Shown here: positions 59,347 through 63,619 of the stretch, one piece after another | Position numbering within the stretch: position 1 is the first letter of the stretch | Layout: each line of letters begins with the position of its first letter | Assembly (NCBI RefSeq): GCF_013004105.1 | Contig: NZ_CP053085.1 | Location: 124,001-188,000 of the forward strand | DNA length: 64,000 nt | DNA from: Gemmatimonas groenlandica | GTDB taxonomy: Bacteria; Gemmatimonadota; Gemmatimonadetes; Gemmatimonadales; Gemmatimonadaceae | Reading direction: 5' to 3' | Notes under the pieces: model-generated | What the model was told of the DNA's origin: nothing | Databases searched by the model: none | What the model saw: only the letters and a program-made list of their open reading frames with translations | Program-made: the position numbers and the translations under genes

Positions 59347-59834
59347 CGGCGCCGTCGCCTTTCAGATCGCGCCCGTTGGCCACCAGACTGGCGGCGCGAG
59401 GAGTCCGTTCGCGCGCCTTTCCTGCGGTAATCGCTCGCCGCAGCGGGGCCGATCGCCGAGTCGTCCAGCGCCTCCCCGTTGCGTCCGCTACCTTTCCAGA
59501 GTCCGAGGGATACGGTGGTCACCCGCGAGTGGGCGCTGACCAATCGTTCCTCCCACAGATCGTGCAGGAACCGGTAGCGGCGCGCGATGCAGCGCCGTTC
59601 GGGGAGAGGTGCGCGTTTTGCCCCTCCTCGCTCATCTCGAGATCCAGATCGCTTTGCACGGCGGGTGAACACGACCCCGCCTTTCGGTCCTCCTGAGAGA
59701 GGAGCCAGCCACGCCCCGGCGGAGGCTTGCATGCGACTGGACCTGCACTGAGCAAGACGCCGACTCGATTGTTGCCGAGCGCATGGCCGCCTTCTGCGGC
59801 TCGTCTTTCGGTACCTCGAGAAGGACATCCGATC
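59347..59834. other. intergenic region before the kai operon
   Basis: About 490 bases with no convincing gene. A six-codon ORF (59730-59750, ATG behind GGAGG) precedes kaiC and could be a leader peptide. The region should hold the promoter of the kaiC operon; I cannot name one with confidence. Adjacent frames lack normal codon bias. Confidence 0.45.
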
Positions 59835-61601
59835 GTGACCATCACTCCGACGTTGGCTTCGCCCAAGATTCTCACCGGCATCCGGGGGTTCGACGAAATC
59901 ACCCGAGGCGGTCTTCCGCGCGGTCGGACGACGCTGATCATGGGAGGAGCGGGCAGCGGCAAGACGGTGTTCGCCCTACAGTCGCTGGTAAACGGCGTGC
60001 GCGAGTCGAACGAATCGGCAATCTTCGTCGCGTTCGAGGAAAGCGTCGCCCAGATCATCAGCAACGCGTCGGCGTTTGGCTGGGACCTGCCGCGACTCGC
60101 CAGGAAACGGCTGCAGTTCTTCGACGCGCGCCTCTCGCCGGAGATCGTGAAGACGGGTGAGTTCGACCTCATCGGCATGCTCGCCATCCTCGAATCGATC
60201 GCGCAAAAAAGCAACGCGCAGCGGATCGTCTTCGACGGCTTGGACGTGCTCCTCGGTCTGCTCGACGATCCCGTGGCCGCGCGCCGCGAGATCTATCGCA
60301 TACGCGATTGGCTCGCCCGTACCGGTCTCACGGGCATCATCACGCAGAAGGCGCGCCCCGCGGCCGTCGATCACAGTGACAGCGATCTGCAGTTCATTGT
60401 CGATTGCGTGGTCATCGTCCGACATCAGGTGGTCGAAGGTTCGGCCTTCCGCAATCTTCGGGTGATGAAGTATCGCGGCTCGGGATTCGCTGGTGACGAA
60501 TTTCCGATTACGCTCACGACCGCCGGGCTTCAACTCACCAATCGTGGTCCGGTCGAGCTCCGCTACGACGTGTCCGACGAGCGGGTGTCCACGGGCTTGC
60601 CGCGACTCGATCACATGTTGCGTGGCGGCTATCACCGCGGCAGCAACATCCTGATCTCGGGGGCGCCCGGAACGGCCAAGTCCACGCTAGCCGGACTGTT
60701 CACGGCGGCCGCCTGTGAACGCGGCGAGCGGACGATGTATGTGAGCTTCGACGAGGGGGCAGCGCAGATCGTACGCAACTTGCAGTCCGTAGCGATTCAG
60801 TTGACGCCGTATCTGCGCTCCGGGCTGCTCAAGATGTACTCCACCCGCACACGCGGACCGAATGTCGAAGATCAGTTCGGTGAGCTTCGCGCCATGGTGC
60901 GGCTGCACAATCCGCGCTGTCTGGTCATCGATCCGTTGTCGGCGCTTTCCAGCAAGCTCGCGCACATCGCGTCCGCCGATGCCGCGCAACAGTTTCTCGA
61001 CTTTCTCAAGGTTGAGGGGATCACCGTCGTCAACACGTCGTTACTCGACGGGGTCAACACCGATGAAGCCACCGCGACCGGGATCTCCACGCTCGCCGAT
61101 ACATGGATTCACATGTCGTATCTGGTCCAGGACGGTGAACGCAATCGCGCCTTGACCATCGTGAAGTCTCGCGGCACGGGCCATTCGAACCAGGTGCGAG
61201 AACTCACCCTCACGGATAACGGGGTCACGCTGACCGACGTCTTCGTGGCGCACGGCAAGGTGTTGATGGGCGTCGCGCGCTGGCAGTGGGAACAGGAAGG
61301 CATTGCCGCAAGACAGCGCAACGAAGTCGCGTCGGAGCTCAAGCGGCTGCAGTTGCAGCTGAAACAGGCAGAAGCGGCGGCTCGCTTGCAGGTGGTGCAA
61401 ACGGAGATGGAAGCACGAAGCGCGGAGATCGCACTGTTGGCGCGCACGATGGGCGAGGCGTCCGACCTGCTCGATACGGACCGCACCGCCCTGCTCGAGA
61501 TGCGACATGCCGACGCCGAGGCGATGGTCACGGGGCCTCGCGCACGACCGGCAACGGGGCCGACCGCTCGGCGCAAGTCCATCAGCCGCAAGGCGCCGTA
61601 G
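59835..61601 (+). CDS. kaiC: KaiC-family double-ATPase
   Basis: 588 residues, two RecA-type domains. CI (about 5-235): Walker A 'GGAGSGKT', Glu68-Glu69 in 'VAFEESVAQI'. CII (about 245-480): Walker A 'GAPGTAKST', Asp306-Glu307 in 'SFDEGAAQI', so the first catalytic Glu is Asp. The site equivalent to cyanobacterial T426/S431/T432 reads 'TATGIST' (413-419), with Ser418-Thr419 kept. Residues about 485-550 form a predicted coiled coil beyond the usual KaiC end. GTG 59835 is chosen (AAGGA 10 bases upstream). Functions as a clock-like or stress ATPase/autokinase in other bacteria; here inferred. Confidence 0.9.
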   Translation: MTITPTLASPKILTGIRGFDEITRGGLPRGRTTLIMGGAGSGKTVFALQSLVNGVRESNESAIFVAFEESVAQIISNASAFGWDLPRLARKRLQFFDARLSPEIVKTGEFDLIGMLAILESIAQKSNAQRIVFDGLDVLLGLLDDPVAARREIYRIRDWLARTGLTGIITQKARPAAVDHSDSDLQFIVDCVVIVRHQVVEGSAFRNLRVMKYRGSGFAGDEFPITLTTAGLQLTNRGPVELRYDVSDERVSTGLPRLDHMLRGGYHRGSNILISGAPGTAKSTLAGLFTAAACERGERTMYVSFDEGAAQIVRNLQSVAIQLTPYLRSGLLKMYSTRTRGPNVEDQFGELRAMVRLHNPRCLVIDPLSALSSKLAHIASADAAQQFLDFLKVEGITVVNTSLLDGVNTDEATATGISTLADTWIHMSYLVQDGERNRALTIVKSRGTGHSNQVRELTLTDNGVTLTDVFVAHGKVLMGVARWQWEQEGIAARQRNEVASELKRLQLQLKQAEAAARLQVVQTEMEARSAEIALLARTMGEASDLLDTDRTALLEMRHADAEAMVTGPRARPATGPTARRKSISRKAP

Positions 61602-61602
61602 C

Positions 61603-61908
61603 ATGCCGAGAATCAGTGCTAAGTCCGCCTTGATGCGGCTCCGACTGTACATCGCTGGCAGCGCGCCGAACTCCGTGCGGGCCGTGGTCAACGCGAGGGC
61701 GATCTGCGAGCAGCACTTCCCCAGCGCGTATGAACTCGAGGTGGTGGATCTGCTCGACTCTCCCGAGCGGGCCTTGGCCGACGGCATTATCGTCACGCCG
61801 ACGTTGCTGAAGTTGGCACCACGACCAACGCAACGCATCATCGGCAACCTCAGTGACACCGAACAGGTCCTGATGGCCCTCGTCGGCACCGATCGGCGCC
61901 ATGAATAA
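61603..61908 (+). CDS. kaiB: KaiB homologue
   Basis: 101 residues. 'LRLYIAGSAPNSVRAVVNAR' and 'YELEVVDLLDSPERALADGI' then 'VTPTLLKLAPRPTQRIIGNL' and 'SDTEQVLMAL' follow cyanobacterial KaiB closely, including the fold-switching region. Binds KaiC in cyanobacteria. ATG 61603 lies one base after the kaiC stop, and its end overlaps the kinase gene by 8 bases. Confidence 0.9.
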   Translation: MPRISAKSALMRLRLYIAGSAPNSVRAVVNARAICEQHFPSAYELEVVDLLDSPERALADGIIVTPTLLKLAPRPTQRIIGNLSDTEQVLMALVGTDRRHE

Positions 61909-63619
61909 CGGACGCACGCTCAGGCGCCGGCTCGCCGAGGCCGATGCGACGATCGCCGCTCTCGTTTCCGGCGAGATCGACGCCGTGGTCGACAGTCGCA
62001 GTCGCTCGCCAGTGCTGCTCGCGATGGCGCAACAGGCGCTGCGGGAGAGCGAGGCCCGGTACCGCAGCATCGTCGAGACATCGAACGAGGGGATCTTCAC
62101 GGTGGCGCTGGACGCCACGCTGACGTTCGCCAACCGACGAATCGCGGACCTGCTCGGATATACGCCCGCTGACTTGATTGGACGATCGTTACTCGAGCTG
62201 CTGCCGGCGCACGCGTACGAACGCGCCATGCTGCGTATCAGTAGTCTGGATCACGATGTCGATGGGGCGAGCGAAGTCACCATCCTCAAGAAGGACGGCA
62301 CCGAGCTGCATGTCGAGTTGAAGTCCAGCGTCGTGCGGGATGAGCACGGGAAACATGTTGGCATGCTGGCCATGATGACAGATCGGACCCGAAGGCGGCA
62401 GGCCGAAGAGGCGTTGCGCAAGATCGAAGCACAATTGATCGTCAGCGATCGCATGGCGTCGGTCGGCACGCTGGCTGCGGGGGTGGCGCACGAGATCAAC
62501 AACCCGCTGGCTGCGGTGACGGCAAACTTGGCGTTCATCGCGGAGCACTGCCGTTGCGGTGGTGCGCTCTCGCCGACTGCCGATGGCTGCGAGGTCAGTG
62601 GGCAGCCCAGTATGCAGGATGCGATCAAGGATGCCCGCGAGGCGGCTGAACGCGTGCGGATCATCGTGCGTGACCTGATGATCTTCTCTCGCGCGCGGCC
62701 GGACGAGCTGATCGGAGCGGTCGACGTGCATCGTGTCTTGGATTCGACGGTTCGTATGGCATGGAACGAAATCCGGCACCGCGCGCAGCTCGTCCGCAAC
62801 TATGGTTCGGTGCCACTGGTCAGCGCCAGCGAGGCTCGACTCGGTCAAGTGATGCTCAACTTGCTGGTCAACGCGGCGCAGGCGCTTCCCGAAGGACACG
62901 CGGAACACCATGCGATCAGCCTCTCGACGTGGTTTGACCGTGACCGGCAGCGGGTCATGGTCGAAATACGTGACACCGGCGTTGGGATCTCGCCGGAACA
63001 CATCAACCGTATCTTCGACCCCTTTTTCACCACCAAAGACGTCGGCCTCGGCACCGGTCTGGGACTCGCCATTTGCCAGCGGATCGTCACCGATCTCGAT
63101 GGCGAGTTGACCGTACGAAGCGAGCTGGGGACGGGAACGACGTTCTCCGTTTCCCTGCCGATCGCAACGATGCCGTCGGTCGTTAAACCGCTTCCCGTTC
63201 CGGCCAACGAACGCGGGGCTCGCGCGCGCATCCTGATTGTCGACGACGAGGAGCTCATCGTGCGCAGCCTAGTGCGAACGCTCGGGGGAGAGCACGACGT
63301 CGTTGGCGTGACCGCCGCACGAGAGGCGCTGGCGTTGCTCGAAGCAGGCGATCGGTTCGACGTCATTCTCTGCGACATCATGATGCCCGAGATGACGGGG
63401 GTCGACCTGTACGGTGAGCTGATGCGCATGGCGCCAGACCAGGCGCATCGCATGATGTTTCTGACGGGGGGCGCGTTCACGCCCAGCACGCAAGCGTTTC
63501 TCGCGGAATCGAGCAACCTGCAGCTCGAGAAGCCGTACGCGCCAATCCAGCTTCGTGACGCCGTGCAACTCGTGCTTCGCGATGGACGCTCGCCTGCGAA
63601 TCCGTCGCCCGAGTGCTAG
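61901..63619 (+). CDS. PAS-histidine kinase-receiver hybrid protein
   Basis: 572 residues. Short N-terminal helix with 'LVSGEIDAVVD', PAS domain (about 51-165, 'NEGIFTVALDATLTFANRRI'), HisKA with His197 in 'GVAHEINNPLA', HATPase (N box 'LLVNAAQAL', 'DTGVGIS', 'GLGTGLGL') and a C-terminal receiver (about 445-560) with Asp492 in 'LCDIMMPEMTG' and Lys in 'LEKPYAP'. No membrane helix, so it is cytoplasmic. Overlap with kaiB argues that it is the output or input partner of KaiB/KaiC. No cognate response regulator is adjacent. Confidence 0.92.
   Translation: MNNGRTLRRRLAEADATIAALVSGEIDAVVDSRSRSPVLLAMAQQALRESEARYRSIVETSNEGIFTVALDATLTFANRRIADLLGYTPADLIGRSLLELLPAHAYERAMLRISSLDHDVDGASEVTILKKDGTELHVELKSSVVRDEHGKHVGMLAMMTDRTRRRQAEEALRKIEAQLIVSDRMASVGTLAAGVAHEINNPLAAVTANLAFIAEHCRCGGALSPTADGCEVSGQPSMQDAIKDAREAAERVRIIVRDLMIFSRARPDELIGAVDVHRVLDSTVRMAWNEIRHRAQLVRNYGSVPLVSASEARLGQVMLNLLVNAAQALPEGHAEHHAISLSTWFDRDRQRVMVEIRDTGVGISPEHINRIFDPFFTTKDVGLGTGLGLAICQRIVTDLDGELTVRSELGTGTTFSVSLPIATMPSVVKPLPVPANERGARARILIVDDEELIVRSLVRTLGGEHDVVGVTAAREALALLEAGDRFDVILCDIMMPEMTGVDLYGELMRMAPDQAHRMMFLTGGAFTPSTQAFLAESSNLQLEKPYAPIQLRDAVQLVLRDGRSPANPSPEC

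Follow-up and report, generated by a model that had tools for sequence, protein, structure and literature searches.

A candidate N-terminal adaptor module in the hybrid histidine kinase of a kaiC-kaiB operon from Gemmatimonas groenlandica

How might a KaiB-KaiC pair that has no KaiA beside it pass its state on to an output protein? This question is raised by positions 59835-63619 of a 64,000-nucleotide stretch of Gemmatimonas groenlandica (NZ_CP053085.1, positions 124,001 to 188,000; referred to as the window), which belongs to a single 5.18-Mb contig. On the plus strand, kaiC (59835..61601), kaiB (61603..61908), and the gene of a hybrid histidine kinase (HK; 61901..63619) are tightly packed, with 1 bp between kaiC and kaiB and 8 bp shared by kaiB and the kinase gene, as an earlier note on this DNA had described and as open reading frames (ORFs) together with Pfam assignments (KaiC; KaiB; PAS-HisKA-HATPase_c-Response_reg) confirmed. 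This compact same-strand order places the locus in the class of kaiC-kaiB-PAS/HK operons. Such operons have already been published for R. palustris and R. sphaeroides (passages of PMC4794148), a table seen in PMC3899966 gives kaiC, kaiB, a PAS kinase, and a CheY-like regulator for Bradyrhizobium ORS278, and according to passages of the 2011 Ramlibacter genome paper (PMC3164672), nearly all kaiC-kaiB clusters outside cyanobacteria precede an HK or GGDEF/EAL gene. The novelty that the earlier note had seen in gene order and partner was thereby not upheld. The operon itself is of a known class, and what looks new is a module at the N-terminus of the kinase, which the note had overlooked; no description of this module was found in the literature covered, namely listings and passages of mostly open-access papers.

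The kinase and its N-terminal module

The kinase gene has an ATG start and encodes 572 amino acids (aa). Residues 1-50 (61901..62050) form the module (GEIDAVVD...PVLL..AQ), followed, according to Pfam, by a PAS domain (residues 53-161, 62057..62383), HisKA (residues 189-266, 62465..62698; H197 at 62489-62491), HATPase_c (residues 311-422, 62831..63166), and a receiver domain (residues 444-556, 63230..63568; D492 at 63374-63376). Aligned module sequences fell into two subtypes, B1 with 47 rows including the window and B2 with 21 rows, mostly from loci with tandem kaiB genes. By hhalign, the B1 and B2 profiles proved to be related (probability 96.7, E 3.5e-10); the window kinase matched B1 with an E value of 5.3e-22 as one of its own 47 seed rows and B2, which was built without it, at E 1.2e-8. 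Neither subtype corresponds to a Pfam family: Pfam gave a best single-member E value of 0.0057 on the module, and at E 0.5 no family occurred in more than 2 of 47 B1 or 6 of 21 B2 members. All module counts given here rest on profiles, since a simple regular expression of the motif missed true cases.

An AlphaFold model of the window kinase (mean predicted local distance difference test score, pLDDT, of 79.7; predicted template modelling score, pTM, of 0.43; 16 sequences), in which the block means of the module were 76-87, predicted a helix at residues 2-23, short strands at 28-30 and 37-39, and a second helix at 41-59 entering the PAS domain. D27, which directly precedes the first strand in this model, is invariant in 45 B1 proteins. 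The same helix-strand-strand-helix order was predicted for a CRP-type module protein, at a low confidence (pLDDT 62.4, pTM 0.36, 5 sequences) that lends weak support at most. A Foldseek search with the whole kinase model listed kinases and phytochromes among 50 of 1835 matches, which has no bearing on the module. Mimicry of a Kai segment was considered as well and rejected: GEIDAV resembles GEFDL of the KaiC CI half, but profile comparison gave no match. Natural KaiB-module or KaiC-module fusions were found at none of the loci examined.

Behind the module, the type of output varies. Among 45 B1 proteins, we found HATPase_c in 22, Response_reg in 20, GGDEF and EAL in 18 each, a Crp-type helix-turn-helix (HTH) in 5, and PAS_4 in 41, while 24 B2 proteins carried HATPase_c (17), HisKA (13), Response_reg (11), HisKA_3 (4), HWE (3), HD (1), and a sigma-54 activator domain (1). 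The kaiC-kaiB-HWE kinase locus of R. sphaeroides KD131 belongs here, its kinase starting with the B2 form, and in L087, L099, and L105 the module precedes a CRP-type HTH, PAS being unmatched. By our own classification, 83 ORFs read after kaiB comprised 45 HKs, 20 proteins of cyclic di-GMP (c-di-GMP) turnover, 5 CRP-type proteins, and 13 unknowns. With the unknowns excluded, the output class switches at least six times on a KaiC tree, which has 78 rows, was made by a quick method, and has 27 weak inner branches out of 75. The closest switch sets L090 (GGDEF-EAL) beside the kinases of L096 and L091, both from cut stretches. Excluded from the tree only were L070, L093, L105, and L146, being off-type or having split or shortened KaiC frames; in L093 (4941-6716) and L146 (4710-6731), kaiC is split into two ORFs by frame or assembly breaks, while long open frames are seen for kaiB and the output gene.

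Distribution of the module beside kai genes

In kaiC-kaiB loci of many phyla, the module was detected in 76 of these 83 ORFs, 16 of which came from the phylum of the window genome and 67 from named loci; 68 of them are profile seeds, so that the count describes the family and is no test. The seven unmatched ORFs were those of L070, L103, L109, L133, L135, L142, and L151. Named loci means the 80 best-scoring loci that a KaiC-profile scan gave across 578 relatives, of which 76 had a KaiB match and four (L100, L116, L122, and L157) had none; the module was present in 62 of the 76. Nine named loci yielded no ORF by the selection rule, and one of these, L149, which is ended by a contig edge, still carries the module. 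In many loci, the output ORF begins 4-8 bp before kaiB ends. Tandem kaiB pairs are common with the B2 subtype, and in L140 (6652-8236; a metagenome-assembled genome, MAG, of Planctomycetota) four consecutive KaiB-like ORFs lie between kaiC and the module-bearing kinase.

Within the phylum, KaiB was found in 40 of 395 genomes, the window genome being the sole KaiB-positive one of its genus. The gene order proposed for checking by the earlier note is conserved in part of the phylum and, as the named loci show, across phyla. Of 47 KaiB loci read in the phylum, 16 are kaiC-first (window included), L056 has no KaiC match, and all others have kaiB upstream of kaiC. Two Kai operon lineages coexist in the phylum. 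The module occurs in 15 of the 16 kaiC-first loci (all 15 being seeds; L070 is without it) and in L056. The kaiB-first loci (L034-L046, L050, L052-L055, L058, L060-L062, L064-L067, L073-L076) have, in most cases, a PAS kinase downstream or divergent, and their KaiC reaches just 225-265 bits against the window KaiC.

Profile searches of genomes, in which only 16 candidates were scored per genome with misses being possible, placed strong module copies in 16 of the 40 KaiB genomes of the phylum versus one of the 355 others (Fisher p 8e-17, mostly seeds). With B1, 12 matches were obtained at E <=1.9e-14, of which 11 are seed loci adjoining kaiB and the twelfth lies in G163, where a 1558-aa module-bearing kinase (L205, 2387-7063) has no Kai match in 14 kb and the genome has no KaiB. 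At E 0.01, B1 reached 35 genomes, including G267, G283, G044, and G091, which carry B2 loci; most other weak matches were partial (E 2.5e-4 to 0.01). B2 gave five matches at E <=2.1e-25, all beside kaiB (four seeds; G283 new), and at E 0.001 a total of 13 genomes, the remaining eight being B1 carriers and a weak match in G135. The own genome has 62 kinase-like places and a single module match (16 of 83 candidates scored).

Across 73 named genomes with scanned loci, 11 further copies appeared outside those loci at E <=1e-8, and seven of them adjoin a kaiC-kaiB pair: other operons hold those of G422, G452, G448 (two copies), G466, and G453, and the one of G407 lies farther along the operon already scanned. 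Copies in G436, G420, and G423 had no Kai match in the 6.5-13 kb examined; the remaining copy, G455:C16, lies at a contig edge. Weaker matches came from G429:C197 and G466:C303, and a match in G417:C82 was judged spurious. For the order to which G404 (a Massilia) belongs, 250 genomes searched with the B1 profile at E 1e-6 gave three matches, all beside KaiB (two seeds; G715 new), and none in the 238 KaiB-less genomes (p 8.6e-5); nine of the 12 KaiB genomes of this order had no match to B1, the only profile used there.

As to which Kai protein the module might contact, KaiC loci without a KaiB match (L116, L122, and L157) had no module in the stretches read, nor had L100, which ends right after kaiC. 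L056 (111-2449), on the other hand, carries two kaiB genes and a kinase that has the module, KaiC being unmatched within 8.4 kb (best tblastn E 0.36). Because of L116, L122, and L157 on one side and L056 on the other, a handful of cases, the sequences lean to KaiB or a KaiB-bound complex as the partner.

Readings of the module

We slightly favor the reading that the operon encodes an R. sphaeroides-type timer made of KaiB and KaiC, without KaiA, along with a dedicated output gene, the kinase of which would sense through the N-terminal module. KaiC would autophosphorylate unaided at S418/T419; KaiB would switch its fold and then bind KaiC depending on phosphorylation and nucleotide, and an hourglass-like course set by the ATP/ADP ratio would result. 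The kinase would sense KaiB or the KaiB-KaiC complex through the helix-hairpin-helix module, which is predicted to be continuous with the N-cap helix of PAS, and the signal would travel by way of H197 and then D492 to a phosphotransfer partner encoded elsewhere. More generally, we take the module for a putative adaptor through which the state of KaiB/KaiC could be passed to exchangeable outputs. We put at about even chances that KaiA-less Kai timers share an adaptor some 50 residues long (helix, GE[IV]DA[VL] hairpin, helix) for kinases, c-di-GMP enzymes, and CRP-type factors, and the chances seem equally balanced for the joint claim that this adaptor covers many bacterial phyla and some archaeal records and is the counterpart of the KaiB-like domain of SasA. 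Since the module is common to unrelated outputs of kai operons, the suggestion of the earlier note that the kinase might read KaiB/KaiC directly gains indirect support.

Several observations weigh against this reading. The module is present in none of the 30 kaiB-first loci of the phylum despite their KaiB, KaiC, and kinases; therefore, Kai systems can work without it. No module ORF was seen in 14 of the 76 named kaiC-kaiB loci, four orphan copies (L205, L268-L270) have no nearby Kai gene, and most adjacency counts include seed loci. Comparison of the module profile with KaiC and KaiB profiles revealed no relation. In nine B2 kinases, the correlation of KaiC with the kinase (r 0.72) nearly equals that with the module (r 0.78), and a 70%-identical relative, L057, is without the KaiC tail, so that a dodecamer is not safely inferred for the window KaiC.

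The module might instead be an ordinary dimerization or signal helix before PAS: the model shows two helices around a tiny hairpin that run into PAS, and PAS_4 accompanies the module in most B1 proteins. The kinase would then sense a PAS ligand and act as an input to KaiC or beside it, in line with a redox input suggested for R. sphaeroides (cited in passages of PMC5520375). We consider this unlikely, as the module also precedes CRP-type regulators that have no PAS match (L087, L099, L105) and is rare among other kinases, with one strong copy against the 62 kinase-like places of the own genome, and as module divergence tracks that of KaiC while PAS divergence does not. Over 29 kinase loci, KaiC and module distances correlated with r 0.84 (0.79 when realigned for those loci only), compared to r 0.28 for KaiC and the kinase domain of the same proteins; in the 21 loci with PAS found, the values were 0.32 for KaiC-PAS and 0.85 for KaiC-module. 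Thirty-three kinase windows of 57 columns gave at most r 0.31 against KaiC, and the 2.5% bound of the correlation difference in a bootstrap was 0.32. L084 and L085, which lie on the same contigs as L063 and L072, were left out of the distance tests and the tree.

Adjacency by itself could make the module track KaiC. The 5' end of a gene translationally coupled to kaiB might be kept by linkage only despite replacement of what lies downstream, an idea which fits the overlaps of output starts with kaiB stops. Linkage to kaiB could explain part of the co-divergence; yet there are module copies that do not overlap kaiB, such as a second copy down the operon (L275), a divergent copy (L272), and the orphans, and an aspartate invariant in 45 proteins indicates a constraint at the protein level. 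Conservation by linkage only thus seems highly improbable to us. A different matter is whether the locus keeps time at all. A Kai-like phosphorylation switch or stress switch that plays no part in timing would be compatible with the adaptor reading; kai genes of Legionella are said to have a stress role, KaiA is unmatched in the genome, and the 20 listed congeners without KaiB speak against a genus-wide role in daily life. Such a switch appears rather unlikely, given that the residues required for the R. sphaeroides cycle are retained; sequence alone cannot separate timer and switch.

If the adaptor reading is true, it would describe a natural means of wiring a slow timer to kinases, c-di-GMP, or transcription. 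The shared module offers one concrete candidate binding site, present also in R. sphaeroides, whose KaiB and KaiC are purified and solved, and could serve as a sequence tag for the discovery of Kai outputs.

KaiC, KaiB, and related systems

KaiC has a GTG start and 588 aa, with two RecA-like halves and a tail of 131 residues after HSNQVREL. A Shine-Dalgarno-like stretch, GAGAAGGA, was seen by eye about 10 nt upstream of the GTG, and a longer alternative frame has a TTG start at 59727. With Walker A motifs at residues 37 (GGAGSGKT) and 276 (GAPGTAKS) and paired acidic residues in FEES at 67 and FDEG at 305, it is a two-domain KaiC; it matched NF006799 above its cut-off (470 bits) and TIGR02655 below its cut-off. 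The closest solved KaiC was that of R. sphaeroides (8dba, 362 bits), followed by 8zn5-8zn7 (266-295 bits) and many entries at about 257 bits. In the alignment with R. sphaeroides KaiC, 212 of 567 positions are identical, W424 aligns with W419, and the adjacent phosphosites S418-T419 (61086..61091) align with S413/S414, so that the Ser-Thr pair reported by the earlier note held up. The tail is alignable with the 114 residues found there, and a C-terminal helical extension (approximately 61281..61514) aligns with the coiled-coil region. According to passages of PMC10076222, R. sphaeroides KaiC autophosphorylates in the absence of KaiA, forms a dodecamer by way of a coiled coil, and takes its cue from the ATP-to-ADP ratio.

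KaiB (101 aa) matched PF07689 with 78 bits and the NCBIfam KaiB models below their cut-offs. Of the fold-switch region that the note had called conserved, the prolines P66, P73, and P75 are present, aligning with P58, P65, and P67 of R. sphaeroides, the isomerization of which limits fold switching according to passages of PMC11551320.

The window KaiC shares 75% identity with the KaiC of an acidobacterial MAG and 73% with that of a deltaproteobacterial one, and forms with these and four gemmatimonad rows a seven-row group (SH-aLRT, a Shimodaira-Hasegawa-like branch test, 100). From this grouping and these identities, the cassette probably moved between phyla; binning errors in the MAGs are also possible. 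Elsewhere in the genome (C1 ~4903780-4906762; KaiC at C1:4903869; L081, 8780-11762), a distant second KaiC (520 aa, 28% identity) is followed by a 489-aa kinase-like ORF, this stretch showing neither a KaiB nor a module match. A promoter and terminator scan showed nothing beyond the level of shuffles: a single promoter-like site, which lies within kaiB, and two terminator-like ones on the minus strand. Literature matches for KaiC with Gemmatimonas led, in the passage seen, to Defluviicoccus, and with Gemmatimonadetes, at title level, to gut microbiota.

The cyanobacterial KaiABC-SasA/RpaA system shares KaiB and a two-domain KaiC with Ser/Thr phosphosites with our locus but differs in that KaiA is unmatched here and the kinase has no match to a KaiB-like domain. 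The absence of kaiA and sasA noted for the window extends to the whole 5.18-Mb genome: PF07688 was unmatched (the control matches in S. elongatus), and PF07689 matched kaiB alone, with no second, SasA-type domain at E 0.001. Since SasA homologues outside cyanobacteria have no KaiB-like domain (passages of PMC5520375), the cyanobacterial output route is not transferable. Compared by description only, from passages of PMC3164672, the Ramlibacter kaiC-HK group also combines KaiC with a downstream kinase whose N-terminus is specific to its family ('RtaNt' kinases) but is without kaiB, and its N-terminus is called receiver- or SasA-like. The R. palustris operon, likewise compared by description (passages of PMC4794148), has the same order and a PAS kinase partner, and a proto-circadian role is reported there. 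R. sphaeroides KaiBC (pRSKD131A; 8DBA, 8FWI, 8FWJ; passages of PMC10076222) differs in an SS instead of an ST phosphosite pair and in an HWE kinase with no receiver match instead of a HisKA hybrid with a receiver. Apart from that, it is alike in gene order, in not needing KaiA, in the phosphosites, the KaiC tail, and the KaiB prolines, and in a kinase that begins with the module.

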